From positions 248,001-312,000 of the forward strand of contig NZ_SMAF01000001.1 of the NCBI RefSeq assembly GCF_004343305.1: a stretch of DNA of 64,000 bases. Reading direction: 5' to 3'. The notes beneath the pieces are model-generated. The model did not search any database. It was not told the origin of the DNA and saw nothing but the letters and a program-made list of their open reading frames with translations. Below, one piece after another: positions 28,303-38,814 of the stretch. Source of the stretch: Pseudofulvimonas gallinarii. Its GTDB lineage: Bacteria > Pseudomonadota > Gammaproteobacteria > Xanthomonadales > UBA2363. How positions within the stretch are numbered: the first letter of the stretch is position 1; each line of letters opens with the position of its first letter. The translations under genes were made by a program, and so were the position numbers.

Positions 28303-31113
28303 TCAGCCGCCGGGCACGGCGTCCGCGAGCCGCAACGGCAACGCCGTCAGGAGCCAGTGCGGTGTGCGGCCAGCGTCCGCGACAACCGCTTCGCCCCGCT
28401 CTCCGGCGCACTCATGGTCAACAGCCAGGGCATGGAAAAGGTCATGGCCCACATCGAGGACGATGTCGTCACCGAGGCGGCGCGCCTGGCGATCCAGCCG
28501 GTGCAGGTGGCCGGCCGCGGCGTTGTGCTCCCCGACCGCCTCGGCATGGACCACGCGCACCAGCGCCAGCCTGGAGTCGAGCAGCCAGTCGCTGGCCTGC
28601 CGTTTCGCTTCCGCCTCGGCGATGTAGCGCCCCGCCCCGTCCCAGTCGCCATCGAGGACCGCAAGTTCGGCCATGCCGATCAGCGCATCGCTTTCCAGCA
28701 GGCGGTACCCGGACCCGTCGAGTGAAGCGACCAGTGCCCTGTACAGCCTCGCGGCCCCGTCGTGGTCACCGGCCCGGAGCAGCGCGCCAGCCGCCTCGCA
28801 CTCGACCAGCCAGCGGTCCGGGACGCTGTCCAGCCCGGGTACGCGCTCGAGCACGGAGCCAAGGCGTACCCGCGCGGCGTCGAACTCGCCGTCCTGCACA
28901 TCGACCTGCGCCAGGCCCGTCTCACCGACCAGCCTGACTATCGGAACAGGCGATGCGGCGCAGCGTCCGTAGTCCTCCCGCGCCTGTTTCGGATCGCCGC
29001 GCGTAATGGCCACGGCGCCGCGCAGGCAATGCTGAAGATCGGCAGGCACGGCCGCCACGACGTCCGACCCGCCAAGGGCCTCGAGGCGGCGCAGGGCATC
29101 ATCGAAGCGCCCTTCCCGGTAGGCCAGGTAGGCGTCGAAATAGTCCAGCCACTGCCCGGCATCGCCCTGCATGCCGCCCGCCCGACGCACCCGGTCCAGG
29201 CGGCGACCGGCACGACGCAGGTCGCCGCTCATGATGTCCTCGTTGACGCGGTCCACCTCGAACAAGGCCAGCGCGTGCTGGTCCTCGGTCGACCGCGCGA
29301 GGTCCTCGGCCTCGCCGAGGCGGCGCCGGTAGGCCTCCAGCCGACCATCCCGGTAGTGGCGGTAGGCAACGGTCCTGAGGGCGTGCATGGCCAGTCGGGG
29401 ATGACCGACGTCATTGGCGCGCGCCAGCAGCAGGTCGAGCTGTTCATCGCTTCCGGGACCGCCGTCCGCGGAGAAGGTCGCCGCCAGCAGCCGTGAGCGC
29501 AGCGCATGCAGTTCGTCCCCTGCCAGCTCGAAATAGGCGGCGGCCTGGTCGAACAGTGACATGTCGGTCGGATCGCGCTGCTCCAGGGCATGCGACTGCG
29601 CGAGCAGCAGCGTCGCCCAGCCCCGCTCATGCGGCCAGCCGGCGCGCTCGGCGATGGCATCGGCCTGCAGGGCGCTGATCCGGGCGGCCGCGCCGTCCCC
29701 CATCGCCTGCTCGGCGTCCGCGCGCACCAGCAGCTGGCTGATGCGCACCGAAACGGGCTGCCGTGTCCAGACATCCGGCGTGAGGATCGCCAGCGCCTCC
29801 CTGTACTGGCCGGCACGGATATAGGCGCGGGCCAGCTCCAGTGAAAAATAGGGCTGGTGCGGATACGCGCGCGCCAGCTCGGAGAATGCGACAACGGCCG
29901 CGTCGTGGTCGGTTCCAAGCGCGAGCCACTGCGCCTCGATCAGCCAGCCGATGTCCTTGGGCAGCGGCGACAGCAGCGCCCGCGTCCGGTCCAGCGCAGC
30001 CTGCGCCGGCTGCGTCCGGCCCAGCATCTGCTCCACCTGGGCGATCTCGTACCACGCCAGTCCGAAATCGGGCGCGTCCTGCAGCAGGGCGTTGCCGATT
30101 TCCGAGGCCTGTGCCCACTGCCTGGCCATCCTTGTACGCCGCAAGCCCAGGAAACGTTCGGCGACCTCGGCGGACACCGCCAGTGCCGGCCAGGACTGGC
30201 CGGCGCGCTCCGGTACCAGCAGGTCGCGGACCTGCCCCGCCACCTGGTCGACGAGGAATGCCATCTGCCCGACCGGCCCTTCGGCGCGGACGGCCTGCCC
30301 GCCCTGGATCGAAGCCTGCACGTAAAGATGATGCGGCCCGGCATCGACCGGGCCGGCCGACAACGTGACCAGACGCGTGCCTTCCTGCTTGTCCCGGTCG
30401 GCGGCCAGATGTGCGGACGAAAGCAGCTGGATGTCGGGCAACATGGTCAACTGCCATGACAGCCAGGCTTCCAGCAGTCCGGCCGGCACGGCGCCCGTGC
30501 CGTCGGCCGGATCCGCGAGCACGATCAACGACACCGCCAGCGGTGACGAGGGCGCCGCCAGGCGGCTGCCGAGCGACACCAGGGCGGTCACCGCAAGAAC
30601 CAGTGCTGCCGCGGCAGCGAACCCTGTGCCGCGGCGACGGCCCACGGAGCGCGTCGCCGAACGCCCTGTCGACGACAGCGACTCCGGCCTCGTGGACGTG
30701 GCGGGTTCGCCGCCCGGTACCCCTTCTGCCGCCGACGCCACGGAAGGAATACATTCTTCTTCGGCAACCGGCTCCACCGCACACGGCGGCTCGAAGACGT
30801 ATCCGCGCTTTGAAACGGTGCGCAGCCAGCCGCGCCGGGATTCTCCCAGCGCCTTGCGCAGCATCCAGACACTCTGCGAAAGATTGCCGTCCTCGACGAT
30901 CACGCCCGGCCAGATGCGGCGGAACAGGTCCGCGCGTCCATGCAGGTGGTGGGGTTCGGCAACGAACAGCAGCAGCAGATCGAACATGCGCTGCGGCAGT
31001 TCGATGCATTCCCCATCGCGCTCGACGCGGCGATACCGCAGGTCAAGGCGGATATCACCGACGCGCAATTGCTTGGCCGTGGCGGGCCACGGCATCTGCA
31101 GATCGCAAGTCAT
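28303..31113 (-). CDS. Membrane-anchored winged-helix regulator with C-terminal TPR-like region
   Basis: A 936-residue CadC/ToxR-like protein. The N-terminal OmpR/PhoB-type winged helix (about residues 15-105) includes FDLLLLFVAEPHHLHGR and VSKRGYVFEPPC. A Ser/Pro linker and one membrane helix (about 160-180, AAAALVLAVTALVSLGS) follow, then a long periplasmic helical region of TPR-like repeats up to the C-terminus. It is likely a one-component membrane regulator. It is divergent from the subtilase gene, and TTTGAG boxes lie between them. The ATG at 31113 has no clear ribosome site; a TTG at 31173 behind AGGAG is a serious alternative. Confidence 0.78.
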   Translation of the reverse strand: MTCDLQMPWPATAKQLRVGDIRLDLRYRRVERDGECIELPQRMFDLLLLFVAEPHHLHGRADLFRRIWPGVIVEDGNLSQSVWMLRKALGESRRGWLRTVSKRGYVFEPPCAVEPVAEEECIPSVASAAEGVPGGEPATSTRPESLSSTGRSATRSVGRRRGTGFAAAAALVLAVTALVSLGSRLAAPSSPLAVSLIVLADPADGTGAVPAGLLEAWLSWQLTMLPDIQLLSSAHLAADRDKQEGTRLVTLSAGPVDAGPHHLYVQASIQGGQAVRAEGPVGQMAFLVDQVAGQVRDLLVPERAGQSWPALAVSAEVAERFLGLRRTRMARQWAQASEIGNALLQDAPDFGLAWYEIAQVEQMLGRTQPAQAALDRTRALLSPLPKDIGWLIEAQWLALGTDHDAAVVAFSELARAYPHQPYFSLELARAYIRAGQYREALAILTPDVWTRQPVSVRISQLLVRADAEQAMGDGAAARISALQADAIAERAGWPHERGWATLLLAQSHALEQRDPTDMSLFDQAAAYFELAGDELHALRSRLLAATFSADGGPGSDEQLDLLLARANDVGHPRLAMHALRTVAYRHYRDGRLEAYRRRLGEAEDLARSTEDQHALALFEVDRVNEDIMSGDLRRAGRRLDRVRRAGGMQGDAGQWLDYFDAYLAYREGRFDDALRRLEALGGSDVVAAVPADLQHCLRGAVAITRGDPKQAREDYGRCAASPVPIVRLVGETGLAQVDVQDGEFDAARVRLGSVLERVPGLDSVPDRWLVECEAAGALLRAGDHDGAARLYRALVASLDGSGYRLLESDALIGMAELAVLDGDWDGAGRYIAEAEAKRQASDWLLDSRLALVRVVHAEAVGEHNAAAGHLHRLDRQARRLGDDIVLDVGHDLFHALAVDHECAGERGEAVVADAGRTPHWLLTALPLRLADAVPGG

Positions 31114-31202: not shown

Positions 31203-31307
31203 GAAGATCACCAAGGATTGGCTTTTGCATTGCAGCAACCGGGAACAACAGACCTACCCGCTTCCGGCAGGCCGGGAAAAGGCGCGATCTTCGTGATGAC
31301 TCGCACA

Positions 31308-31335
31308 CTCAAACGCGATTTGAGAAAAATTTGAG
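31308..31335. promoter_or_regulatory. Helically phased TTTGAG boxes between regulator and subtilase
   Basis: CTCAAA (31308-31313), TTTGAG (31319-31324) and TTTGAG (31330-31335) start exactly 11 bp apart. The latter two form a direct repeat of the type bound by OmpR/PhoB-family winged helices. A TATATC hexamer at 31368-31373 could be the subtilase -10, with a poor -35, which would fit activator dependence. The rest of the 417-bp intergenic region holds no further coding sequence. Confidence 0.5.
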
Positions 31336-31530
31336 GTCGAACCCGTGGCGTCATCCGTCCGCGCGCGCCTATATCAACGGGTCGCCCCAGCCCAGGGAGC
31401 GCCCAGCCTTCCCCGGAAGGACTGCATGGATGATCGGGCAACTGGAGTTTCCATTTCACCAACTGAGGATGTGTGTGTTCACGCCAGTGCCAGGTCCGGC
31501 CCTACGCGAACATGCCATCGGGAGAATGCA

Positions 31531-33411
31531 ATGAACCACCGCAAGACGCTGCTGGCGGCCATGCTTGGTACGGCCAGCCTGTACGCAACGAGCTCGCACG
31601 CCGCCGACGCCGACAAACTGGTGTTCAGCGAGAATGCCATCGAAGGGCGCTATATCGTCGTCCTGAAGGAAGACGCCGCCCGCTTCGCCGACGAGCGCTC
31701 CAACAAGCCCGAGATCGCCACTGTCGCCGCCCAGCTGGCCCGCTCCTACGGCGCCAAGGTGGAAATGAGCTACAGCAAGGTCCTGCCCGGCTTCGTCGTG
31801 ACGGCGAACGACAAGGCGCTTGCACAGCTGCTGGCCGATGAGCGCGTGGCCTACATCGAAGAGGACGGCTGGGTTCATGCCAGCGCCGTGCAGAGTGGCG
31901 CCACCTGGGGTCTGGACCGCATCGACCAGCGCAACCTGCCGCTGAACCAGCAGTACCAGTACGACACCACGGCGTCGAACGTGCGCATCTACGTGGTCGA
32001 TACCGGCATCCGCTCCACCCACAACGACTTCGGCGGCCGCGTCGGTGCCGGCTACACGGCGATCAATGACGGCCGCGGCACCGAAGACTGCAATGGCCAC
32101 GGCACGCACGTCGCCAGCACCGCGGCCGGCGCGACCTACGGCGTCGCCAAGTCGGCCCGCCTGCATCCCGTCCGAGTGCTCGGCTGCGATGGCTCCGGCA
32201 CGAACTCCGGCGTGATCGCCGGCATGGACTGGGTGGCCAACAACCACGTCAAGCCGGCCGTCGCCAACATGAGCCTGGGTGGCGGTGCCTCCACGGCAAC
32301 CGACCAGGCGGTGCAGCGCATGCACAACGCCGGCGTCACCGTCGTCGTCGCTGCCGGCAACGACAACTCGAATGCCTGCAACTACTCGCCGGCACGCGCC
32401 GCAGTCGCCATCACCGTCGGTTCGACGACGAACACCGATGCGCGCTCGTCGTTCTCGAACTATGGCAACTGCCTCGACATCTTCGCCCCGGGTTCGTCGA
32501 TCACTGCCGCCTGGCACTCGAGCAATACCTCGACCAACACGATCAGCGGCACATCGATGGCTTCGCCGCATGTCGCCGGCGTCGCCGCCCTCTACCTGGC
32601 GAACAACCCCAGTGCGACACCCAGCCAGGTGACCACGGCCGTGATCAACAACGCCACGCCGAACAAGGTCACCAGTGCGGGCAGCGGCTCGCCCAACCGG
32701 TTGCTGTATTCCCTGTTCGGCGGCGGTGGTGGTGGTCCGGAGCCGGAGCCGGAACCGCCCACCGGCCAGCTGCAGAACGGCGTCCCGGTGACCGGCCTGT
32801 CCGGTGCGGCGAGCTCCGAGCGTCGCTACACGCTGCAGGTTCCGTCGGGTGCCACCAACCTGTCGTTCGCGATGAGCGGCGGCAGCGGCGACGCCGACCT
32901 GTATGTCCGATTCGGCAGCGCGCCGACCACCAGCAGCTACGACTGCCGTCCGTACCTGAGCGGCAACAACGAGACCTGCAACTTCAGCAGCGCCCAGAGC
33001 GGCACCTACCACGTCCTCGTTCGCGGCTACAGCAGCTACTCCGGCGCGCAGCTGGTGGGCAGCTACCAGGCCGGTGGCGGTGGCGGCGGATCGGCACCCT
33101 GCTCGGGTGCCAACTGCACGTCGTTCACCGGCTCGCTCAGTGGCAGCGGACAGGCGGTGATCCAGCCGAACGGCAACTACTACCAGAGTGTCGCCGGCGC
33201 GCAGCGGGGCTGGCTGACCGGTCCGTCAACGGCGGACTTCGACCTGGAGCTGTATCGCTGGAACGGTTCGGCCTGGACCCGCGTCGCCAACTCGGCGTCG
33301 GCCAGCAGCACCGAGTCGATCAACTACAACGGCGCTGCCGGCTACTACTACTGGCGGATCCGGTCCTACTCGGGCAGCGGCAGCTACACGTTCTACATGC
33401 AGACCCCGTAA
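31531..33411 (+). CDS. Secreted subtilisin-like serine protease (S8) with C-terminal PPC-type domains
   Basis: A 626-residue extracellular protease. Start 31531 follows GGGAG. Signal peptide 1-24; I9-type inhibitor propeptide about 35-115; S8 catalytic domain about 120-385 with Asp-157 (VVDTG), His-190 (NGHGTH) and Ser-342 (GTSMASPH). A Gly/Pro/Glu linker leads to a bacterial pre-peptidase C-terminal domain (about 415-510), then a Gly linker and a second beta-sandwich to the end. The PPC-type domains are usually removed during maturation. A strong terminator follows. Divergence from the membrane regulator suggests specific control. Confidence 0.93.
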
Positions 33412-33460: not shown

Positions 33461-33780
33461 CGTCTGACGGCTGCCGGCGTACGACGGGCACGGGTACATC
33501 GGGTCTTTCGCAGCGGCAGTGCCCCATCCGCCCCGCCCGGCCGGCGGAGGAAGCACGCCCCCTTCTGTGCATCAGGCCGGCGTGCGGCAGGGCCAGCGGC
33601 TGCATCGACCCCGCGCCGTGCGCCCCAACCTGCTGTCTCCAGGCCAGTTTCAGGATTTTCGTCATTGCGTGATTGGATTCGTGCCCTTATCGCGCTTGGA
33701 CAGGTAACGGGTGGAAAGGTCGGGCCGGGAGGAAGGTCCGATTGCCACCCTGCCCATTCAACTGCGGAGAGAGCCTGTCC
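33461..33780. other. Intergenic region before the mosaic exported protein
   Basis: About 320 bp with no supported gene. The ribosome site GGAGAGAG lies just before 33781. No clear sigma-70 promoter could be picked out. Confidence 0.5.
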
Positions 33781-36700
33781 ATGAGACCCATCGCCGATGT
33801 CCATGAATCGTTCCACCCTGCATGTGCCGCAGGCGTCGCGGCACACAGGGACACGCGGACGCGGTGGACGCTGATCGTACTGCTGCTGTCGGCCTGGCTG
33901 CTGGTCGCCCTGCCGGCCCGTGCCGGAACGCCGGAACCTTTTCTGTTCGAGAGTTCGGCACCGGGCCTGGCCGGCGGCGGACTGAGCCTCTCGGGCACGC
34001 ACTTCCACGGCATTTCATTCCGCCTGACCGAGCGCGTCCGCGTTTCCGAGATCGGTGGCCAGCTGAGTTCGTTCCAGCCGGCGACCATCTATGGGGCGAT
34101 CTACGCCCTCGGCACGCCGTCTTCGCCGGCTTACGTGCTCACGGACAGCAACCTGGTGGCGACCGCGCTGCTGGACATGCCCGGCGGCAACGCGCCCGCG
34201 GAAATCAGTACCGCCATGGACGTCGAGCTTGAACCGGGCTGGTATGCCGTTGGTTTCGGTACCGGCCGCCACGGTTCGCCCACGTCGCAGTCCTCGGCGA
34301 CGATGAACGCCACGGGCAATCCCAAACCGGCGAGAACCTACGGCCCCTGGACCATGAACATGGCCAGCGGCTCCATGGTCTTGCAGCAGACCTCGGTGCG
34401 CATTTTCCTGCGCGGCCAGCCCATCGAGCCCGCACCGGTCGATCCGACGCGCTTTCTCTGGCAGACCGTCGAGCCCTGGGCGTGGGGCGTGACCGCCTAT
34501 TACCGCATGGACAACCAGAATTTCGCCGCCCAGCGTTTCACGCTGAACCGGCCTACCAGGATCGACCGCGTCGGCGTATGGGGTGGATACATGGGCCACG
34601 GCACCGGCTTCGTGGCGATCTTCCCGCTCCAGAGCGCCAACGACCTGCCTCCGCATCCTAACGATCCGCTGCTGGAGCAGAAGGCGCTGGCCAGTGCGCT
34701 GATCACGAGCCAGTCGTTCACCGAGGAGCTGTTCGCCGATTTTGGCGGCATCGAGCTGCCACCGGGCCACTACGGCATGATCGTCGGCAGTGGACGCTTC
34801 GGCGCCGACGGCGCCATCTACCTGGTATACCTCGAAGACGGCGTCATCGTCCCGACCACCCTGCGCTACGAACCGCAGTTCCCGGGCTGGCTGAACCTCA
34901 CCTCCGTGTTCTCCATGCGCGTCACGGGTCTCATGGCCGAAATCGCCATGGATACCGATGTGCTCGACTTCGGGGACGTCCTCGTCGACGACGGTTCACG
35001 GCGGACGGTCACGATCACCAACTACCGCGAACACGGTCCGCTGGCGATCGAGCTGGCCTACCTGTCGGGTGACGATGCGATGCACTTCGATTTCGGCATC
35101 GATATCGCCGACTGCGCCAGCATCGCGGTCGGCGCGAGCTGCAGTTTCAGCATCGACTACCGGCCCCAGGCCGCGGGACCCCACGTTGCCGTGATGACGA
35201 TCATCAGTGACGGCATTCCCGATCCGGTCGAGGTGCAGTTGTCCGGCAGCGGCCTGGCCTCGGCGTGGGTGACACCAGGCGCCCAGGGCAATGGCAGCAT
35301 CCAGCCCGACGTGCCGCAATTGACGGCCATCGGTGACAACGTCGCGTTCTCGCTGACGCCTGCCGAGGGTCACCACGTGGCCGACGTTGAAGGCAGCTGC
35401 GGCGGCACGCTCGATGGCCTGGTCTTCAACACCGCGGGAATTGCCGCCGACTGCAGCGTGACGGCGGTATTCGCACTGAACCACTACTTACTGACCTATT
35501 TCGCCGGAGCGCATGGCAAGGTGGATGGCGACACCGTGCAAAGCATCGACCACGGCGGATCGGGTTCGGCCGTGACGGCGGTGGCGGACGAGGGCTACCA
35601 CTTCGTGCAGTGGAGTGATGGCCGTAGCGACAATCCGCGCCTGGACGCCAATGTGGTGGCGGCCATCACGGTGGAAGCGCAGTTCGCCATCAACACCTAC
35701 ACGCTGGCCTATTCGGCCGACAGCAACGGCAGCATCGATGGTGAGCCGGTGCAGACCGTTGAACACGGCGAAGACGGCGCACCCGTGACGGCGGTGCCGG
35801 GAAAGGGGTATCACTTCCTGCAATGGAGCGATGGTCGCGACGACAACCCGCGGGTCGATATGGCTGTCACATCCGACTTCGCCGTGTCCGCGGCGTTTGC
35901 GATCAACACCTACACCGTCACCGCCTCGTCCAGTGGCAACGGCACGCTGTCACCCACGGGTGCGCAGACCGTTGAGCACGGGTCGGACATATCGTTCCAG
36001 GTCTCCCCGGATCCCGGGTTCGTCGCGGTCGTGGGCGGCAGCTGTGGCGGAGAGCTCGACGGCAACACCTATGTCACCGCGCCCGTCATCGGCGATTGCA
36101 CCGTCGACGCCAGTTTCGTTGCGCCGGTTTCACTGCACATCGTGACCGGCGACGCGCAGTCTGCCGTCATCGGCATGCCTTTCGACCAGGCATTACGGGT
36201 GCTCGTGCTCGATATCGACGCCGAGCCGGTGTCCGGTGTCGAGATCACTTTCATGCCACCTGCCAGCGGCCCTTCCCTGTTGCCCGCCCAGGCAACCGTC
36301 ACGACGGGCAGCGATGGCATCGCCGCTCTCGGCGTCATGGCCAACATGACACCAGGCACGTATGCCGTCAGCGCGAGTGCGCCCGCCTATGCCGCCGCGG
36401 CCGGCGTGACGTTCGCACTGGAAAACCGGCTTGCAGACGCGCATCTGTCGGTCAGCGTCAGCGATGGTCGCGACCATATACGCCATGGCCAGGTGGTCGA
36501 CTATCTCGTCGAGGTGTTGAACGAAGGTCCCGACGCAGTCACCGGGCTGTCGATCGCCATGACACTGGCGGACAGCCTCGACGTTTCATCCGCCACCTGG
36601 CAGTGCCTGACAGCGGTCAGTGGATGCACCCCGAGCGGCACCGGCGCGTTGCAGGACAGCGGGCTGGTGCTCGGCGTGGGCGAGGCGGCCGGCTATGTGG

Positions 36701-37200
36701 TGACCGTGGCGGTTGCCGCCGACACCGACCTGCCCGCGACGACTGCAAGCGTGGACATCACGGCACCGGGCTTGTCAGCCTTTGCCGAAGACACGACCAC
36801 GCTGGTCATCTTCCGCAACGGCTTCAACTCGGAGATGGATGATGGCGCGAAGGCCGTGCCCGACTCTGCTCCCGATCTGTCCGGCCCGGCCTTCCACGGT
36901 ATCGGAGACGTGGCCGTCGATCCGGTCACCATGGAAGACGATGGCATCGTGACCCTCTTGCAGGTCGCCGGCCCGGCGAACACCGTCATCCGGATCGACC
37001 AGCTGCAGTACGGCGACGCAACCCTCGTGCGCCTGGCGGCCAGCGACGGGCATTCCGGGCAAGCGAGCAGCTGGCTGCGGATCGAGCCGGACGAACCGGT
37101 TCTTGCAGCGCCGTACACCAGCGGCGGTCAGGTCGGGATGCTGCTGTCTTCGGAGAGCGGGACTGTCGAGCTTGACCTGGGGAACATCGCGCCGCGGTGA
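33781..37200 (+). CDS. Large mosaic exported protein with HYDIN-like, InlB-B-like and Ig-like domains
   Basis: A 1139-residue exported protein with a long n-region and a signal helix (LIVLLLSAWLLVALPARA, about 30-48). Two similar N-terminal beta-rich units span about 50-385. An ASPM/SPD-2/Hydin-like domain follows at about 385-493 (VLDFGDVLVDDGSRRTVTI), then about three divergent InlB-B-like repeats to about 780 (GYHFLQWSDGRDDNPR). A Big-1/invasin-like Ig domain lies at about 780-883, a DUF11-like domain to about 1000, then IFRNGFNSEMDDG. The role is probably a surface or secreted adhesin-like protein; ligand unknown. Confidence 0.75.
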   Translation: MRPIADVHESFHPACAAGVAAHRDTRTRWTLIVLLLSAWLLVALPARAGTPEPFLFESSAPGLAGGGLSLSGTHFHGISFRLTERVRVSEIGGQLSSFQPATIYGAIYALGTPSSPAYVLTDSNLVATALLDMPGGNAPAEISTAMDVELEPGWYAVGFGTGRHGSPTSQSSATMNATGNPKPARTYGPWTMNMASGSMVLQQTSVRIFLRGQPIEPAPVDPTRFLWQTVEPWAWGVTAYYRMDNQNFAAQRFTLNRPTRIDRVGVWGGYMGHGTGFVAIFPLQSANDLPPHPNDPLLEQKALASALITSQSFTEELFADFGGIELPPGHYGMIVGSGRFGADGAIYLVYLEDGVIVPTTLRYEPQFPGWLNLTSVFSMRVTGLMAEIAMDTDVLDFGDVLVDDGSRRTVTITNYREHGPLAIELAYLSGDDAMHFDFGIDIADCASIAVGASCSFSIDYRPQAAGPHVAVMTIISDGIPDPVEVQLSGSGLASAWVTPGAQGNGSIQPDVPQLTAIGDNVAFSLTPAEGHHVADVEGSCGGTLDGLVFNTAGIAADCSVTAVFALNHYLLTYFAGAHGKVDGDTVQSIDHGGSGSAVTAVADEGYHFVQWSDGRSDNPRLDANVVAAITVEAQFAINTYTLAYSADSNGSIDGEPVQTVEHGEDGAPVTAVPGKGYHFLQWSDGRDDNPRVDMAVTSDFAVSAAFAINTYTVTASSSGNGTLSPTGAQTVEHGSDISFQVSPDPGFVAVVGGSCGGELDGNTYVTAPVIGDCTVDASFVAPVSLHIVTGDAQSAVIGMPFDQALRVLVLDIDAEPVSGVEITFMPPASGPSLLPAQATVTTGSDGIAALGVMANMTPGTYAVSASAPAYAAAAGVTFALENRLADAHLSVSVSDGRDHIRHGQVVDYLVEVLNEGPDAVTGLSIAMTLADSLDVSSATWQCLTAVSGCTPSGTGALQDSGLVLGVGEAAGYVVTVAVAADTDLPATTASVDITAPGLSAFAEDTTTLVIFRNGFNSEMDDGAKAVPDSAPDLSGPAFHGIGDVAVDPVTMEDDGIVTLLQVAGPANTVIRIDQLQYGDATLVRLAASDGHSGQASSWLRIEPDEPVLAAPYTSGGQVGMLLSSESGTVELDLGNIAPR

Positions 37201-37902: not shown

Positions 37903-38814
<912 letters not shown>

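Follow-up and report, generated by a model that had tools for sequence, protein, structure and literature searches.

The stretch of DNA analysed here (64,000 nucleotides from Pseudofulvimonas gallinarii, referred to as the window) carries a divergent gene pair, in which a regulator gene and a gene for a secreted subtilase are transcribed away from each other, with a series of short elements in the intergenic region between them. The features are as follows, in order of position.

28303–31113, minus strand: regulator gene, 936 aa, with an N-terminal Trans_reg_C winged helix (residues ~12–107), a linker, one membrane segment and a TPR-containing C-terminal part (translation, Pfam).
30568–30624, minus strand: predicted transmembrane segment of the regulator, residues 164–182 (hydropathy).
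30793–31080, minus strand: winged-helix DNA-binding domain, recognition helix EDGNLSQSVWMLRKALG (Pfam, PDB profile).
31308–31313, minus strand: inverted TTTGAG half-site (word search; not conserved in relatives).
31319–31335, plus strand: putative tandem operator TTTGAG-AAAAA-TTTGAG, units 31319–31324 and 31330–31335 (11-bp period; conserved element).
31346–31349, plus strand: TGGC, the window's version of a conserved ArGY at the −35 position, with the conserved G at 31348 (column conservation).
31370–31375, plus strand: TATATC, a −10-like hexamer starting 34 bp past the last box (sequence and offset optimum in relatives).
31531–33411, plus strand: secreted subtilase (S8) with a signal peptide, an I9 propeptide, an S8 domain and two PPC-domain stretches; presumed target (translation, Pfam).

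In bacteria of this order from soil and water, what governs when costly proteases are secreted is poorly understood. The locus offers a compact test case, with a putative membrane-anchored winged helix acting on strict tandem repeats, and a regulator family, a putative operator, a promoter geometry and predicted targets can be read from the sequence in dozens of genomes.

The most likely start of the regulator is ATG 31113, picked from the N-termini of homologues. Pfam matches the protein to PF00486 (2.8e-8, above the cut-off) and TPR_19 (6e-15), and the Trans_reg_C domain is present in all 25 aligned members of the family. A profile of the regulator family, compared with the PDB, matched the DNA-binding domains of PhoB (2.5e-9), CadC (4.1e-9) and ToxR (2.3e-8), together with TPR proteins. 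By hydropathy alone, 22 of the 25 members, including the window protein, have one hydrophobic segment at about residues 140–200 with a positive N-side; this positive-inside segment would place the winged helix in the cytoplasm and the TPR part beyond the membrane. Pfam, the PDB profile and hydropathy thus agree with an earlier note on this DNA, which had described a membrane regulator with a winged helix of the OmpR/PhoB type and a periplasmic TPR-like sensor. A single-sequence AlphaFold model of the regulator (pLDDT 45) was too poor for use. The subtilase matches PF00082 (2.7e-46) and PF05922 (1e-7) and has a hydrophobic N-terminus, and its most likely start is ATG 31531. It is adjoined on the same strand (33673–37200) by a gene for a large protein in which divergent InlB-type repeats are accompanied by HYDIN/ASH-like Ig domains.

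Neither the regulator nor the protease gene was found in the other two genomes of the genus compared, and the comparison therefore relied on distant homologues. Strong matches to the regulator were found in 17 of 398 sampled genomes of the order (the window's own counted), in 34 of 395 genomes of one large family and in 9 of 233 of another; among 369 sampled genomes of the class, no member outside the order appeared at E 1e-25, and a search of named-genome contigs for relatives returned just one distant Streptomyces winged helix. In all, 56 regulator loci, scattered through the order, were read, with a protein identity to the window's regulator of about 36%. Their divergent neighbours include members of four unrelated peptidase families (S8 at 25 loci, M4 at five, S1 at two and S46 at two), typed by Pfam for 20 loci and elsewhere by similarity to the window's subtilase.

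The earlier note had also reported three TTTGAG boxes with starts exactly 11 bp apart, two of them direct repeats, and these lie at positions 31308 (minus), 31319 (plus) and 31330 (plus). The word is scarce in the window (4 observed, 11 expected), and all copies but one fall within this 28-bp stretch. In the whole 3.45-Mb genome, the pattern WTTGAKN5WTTGAK has a single match, at 31319–31335, and the reversed control pattern has none; TTTGAGN5TTTGAG with at most one mismatch has two matches, the second of which lies close to the end of an unrelated contig. Of the three boxes, the tandem pair on the plus strand is kept in relatives and the inverted box at 31308, which sits in the slot used by a third direct unit in some of them, is not. 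A palindromic operator including the inverted box is rejected on the ground of this lack of conservation.

The spacing of the boxes was examined by scanning the regions upstream of 55 homologous regulators, with the window left out, for two TTTGAG words at spacings of 0 to 19 bp. At a spacing of 5 bp (an 11-bp period), on the strand running towards the divergent gene, 18 of the 55 regions reach at least 10/12 matching positions and 12 of these at least 11/12. No match of at least 11/12 was found at any other spacing from 0 to 13, nor on the opposite strand at any spacing; the other spacings reaching 11/12 are 14 (one region) and 16 (three regions), the latter corresponding to a 22-bp distance that spans a third unit. 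Since the seed motif came from the finding itself, a leave-one-out matrix was also used, omitting the scored region, its near-copies and the window. By this matrix, 31 of 51 non-redundant regions (30 relatives and the window) score at least 13; shuffles of the same region reach its score in at most 2 of 200 cases, and in none of 200 for most loci, and the opposite strand never comes near. The window's own operator scores 31.1, a value reached by none of 200 shuffles. The consensus in relatives is wTTGAGAAnnA-wTTGAK, with an 11-bp period and oriented towards the divergent gene, and some loci have a third unit upstream or downstream of the pair. At the loci with a trypsin-like (S1) partner (L127 and L139 with L111 and L120), there are two box pairs per long intergenic region, and at the two loci with an S46 partner (L047, L124), a degenerate variant, CTTTAGAAAAATTGAG, with a 10-bp rather than an 11-bp spacing, lies upstream of the regulator.

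The boxes largely accompany the gene pair. They are present at 26 of the 31 non-redundant loci with a divergent S8, M4, S1 or S46 peptidase, so the loss of boxes where the pair is kept, which the earlier note had held to be fatal to its proposal, is not the pattern found; by eye, three of the five box-less peptidase loci (L064, L107, L109) appear to have a variant box in the correct place. Boxes were found at 5 of the 20 loci with no peptidase partner. This association between box and partner shows clustering on the tree of regulators, and in independent contrasts, which are underpowered (six pairs), it is not significant (median p 0.5). The boxes are missing from some family members, and of ten more members, belonging to another family within the order, none had a confident box, nor was a peptidase recognised next to them in the stretch that was read. 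The motif is short and was first spotted by eye, and it might accordingly be taken for chance A/T-rich words of an intergenic region. It is, however, conserved at about 36% protein identity while its flanks are not, 0 of 200 shuffles match it at most loci, and it occurs once per genome; the spacing scan, the shuffles and the genome count, together with the strict-pair co-occurrence and the −10 offset given below, refute an origin by chance, which retains almost no credibility.

A strict form of the pair, WTTGAGAANNWWTTGAK, has 16 matches in 14 of 43 regulator-bearing genomes, and the control pattern has none. Of these matches, 13 lie immediately upstream of a regulator gene; the remaining 3 precede a gene, not linked to a regulator, whose product is a secreted M14 carboxypeptidase. 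In a set of 39 genomes that lack the regulator, the strict pair is confined to one (two matches, with three for its reversed control). This co-occurrence across genomes favours the regulator as the binder, and the boxes are very probably its docking site, because they are found in the same place beside its distant relatives. The three M14 sites (L129, L138, L128) precede a zinc carboxypeptidase gene on unlinked contigs, in three genomes of one genus, and this carboxypeptidase is likely to be a target in trans of the same regulator family. A rival reading of the same three sites is that the boxes serve another DNA-binding protein, encoded at an unlinked place (a global regulator, say, or a two-component regulator of the OmpR/PhoB type), in the control of secreted peptidases, the adjacent gene being a passenger or controlling something else; OmpR/PhoB-type response regulators do bind similar repeats. 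Such a protein seems improbable, given that the pair is nearly confined to regulator-bearing genomes and is mostly directly upstream of the regulator, that it is found once in the window's genome, and that the ten members without a recognised peptidase neighbour have no confident site. A further hint that the regulator itself is the binder may lie in its recognition helix: where residue 84 is Leu, the sixth base of the box is T in 7 of 9 cases, as against 4 of 26 for other residues (p 0.001, uncorrected). The match between residue 84 and the sixth base is suggestive only, because the covariation comes from just two or three independent contrasts; if it holds, target prediction would become possible.

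The distance from the boxes to the promoter is also conserved. When 26 non-redundant relatives are aligned on the last box, a −10-like hexamer (TACATC, TAAATC, TACACC, etc.) begins at offset 34, which is the optimum for such a hexamer and was reached by none of 2000 circular-shift controls. A G at offset 12, inside ArGY, is found in 23 of the 26 relatives with the window left out (p 7e-9), and in 25 of 27 in the column count. With the −10 at offset 34, ArGY falls at the −35 position, and it differs from TTGACA. In the window, TATATC occupies offset 34 and G offset 12, as in the relatives, and column information in the sequence flanking the conserved elements is near 0. The −10 that had been noted near the boxes is thus in place, and the description of the −35 as poor was correct, as no recognisable sigma-70 −35/−10 pair was found. 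A terminator-like hairpin at 31251–31273 (minus strand), within the regulator's own leader, may be due to chance, as one was observed and 0.6 expected.

These observations suggest that the tandem boxes at 31319–31335 are probably the operator of the divergent membrane regulator, and that this regulator activates the secreted peptidase next door. Two winged-helix domains (up to three in relatives) would dock head-to-tail, one per 11-bp helical turn, at a position about 50–70 bp ahead of the start site, immediately beyond the footprint of RNA polymerase. A promoter with a −10 but no usable −35 would thereby be switched on, and the neighbouring secreted peptidase, here the S8 subtilase, would be made. 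The likely sensor would be the C-terminal TPR part, which is predicted to lie beyond the membrane; no evidence was found for the envelope or secretion signal proposed in the earlier note, which is no better supported than, for instance, peptides. Two features, the missing −35 and the position of the boxes, are the grounds for preferring activation to repression. The regulator may instead bind the boxes and repress the protease, or chiefly control its own gene, until a signal releases it: direct repeats can serve repression, the boxes also precede the start of the regulator, by about 200 bp, and the inverted box at 31308 is directed towards the regulator gene. We nevertheless consider repression or autocontrol unlikely, as the boxes always point at the peptidase, with 0 matches on the opposite strand, and lie 34 bp from the −10, outside the core promoter and in the place expected for an activator, before a −35 that is non-consensus.

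The regulator most likely works like a membrane regulator of the ToxR/CadC type with tandem recognition of the PhoB/PhoP type. It shares with ToxR/CadC-type transmembrane transcription regulators (TTRs) the presence in one protein of an N-terminal OmpR-type winged helix, a single membrane segment and an extracytoplasmic C-terminal part, although this last part, whose location is predicted here, is about 750 residues long and contains TPRs. TTRs have been reported to be widespread in prokaryotes (PMC10269533). CadC is reported to prefer A/T-rich DNA, to make few specific contacts and to bind two sites head-to-head (PMC5430869), whereas the boxes described here form a strict 11-bp head-to-tail repeat at a fixed distance from the −10. 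The regulator is not CadC itself, as it scores 35.1 bits against the CadC equivalog model (NCBIfam NF007540), for which the cut-off is 400. On DNA, PhoP of M. tuberculosis forms tandem dimers, trimers or tetramers over direct repeats of 7 bp, between which the spacer is strictly 4 bp (PMC4832192). The winged-helix fold is common to PhoB/PhoP and the regulator, the 7-bp motif and 4-bp spacer give the same 11-bp period, and PhoP extends to three units, as do several relatives of the regulator locus. By contrast, the regulator would be membrane-anchored, without a receiver domain or phosphorylation, and its last box ends 34 bp before the −10; a response regulator is ruled out, no receiver domain being present among the Pfam matches of the regulator and the aligned members.

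SARP regulators (AfsR, DnrI) are soluble actinomycete proteins. Like the regulator, they combine an OmpR-type domain with a helical-repeat part and are associated with 11-bp direct repeats at promoters without a good −35 (PMC10936776). SARP repeats are, however, 8 bp from the −10 and overlap the −35, and this distance (34 bp here), together with the lack of any match to the BTA domain in aligned members of the regulator family, rules out a SARP. Winged helix and TPR region are also found together in HilA of Salmonella, a soluble protein that regulates a type III secretion system; the family described here differs in its membrane segment and peptidase neighbours. A literature search that covered few subscription journals yielded no description of a peptidase-linked regulator family of this kind.

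A broader reading can be put forward tentatively, although we regard it as rather doubtful: the gene pair may belong to a lineage-specific cassette for extracellular digestion, in which a single family of membrane winged-helix/TPR sensors, together with a tandem-box promoter architecture of its own, has been recruited in cis by at least four unrelated families of peptidases (S8, M4, S1 and S46) and in trans by one more (M14). If so, the TPR part would sense something common to them, such as misfolded secreted protein or the peptides that proteolysis sets free, and the regulator would be a one-component switch through which secreted proteolysis feeds back on itself.

The window also contains a repeat unrelated to the regulator. 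Directly downstream of a tRNA-Ser(TGA) gene (38725–38814, minus strand), 4.9 tandem copies of a 164-bp unit, 96% identical, occupy positions 37940–38742. Each unit contains the 3' end of the tRNA-Ser(TGA) gene, CCCACCCTCTCCGCCA, and after it a terminator-like GGGCCCGCAAGGGCCC-TTTTCG, and the array resembles the tRNA-tail repeats found after tyrT in E. coli.
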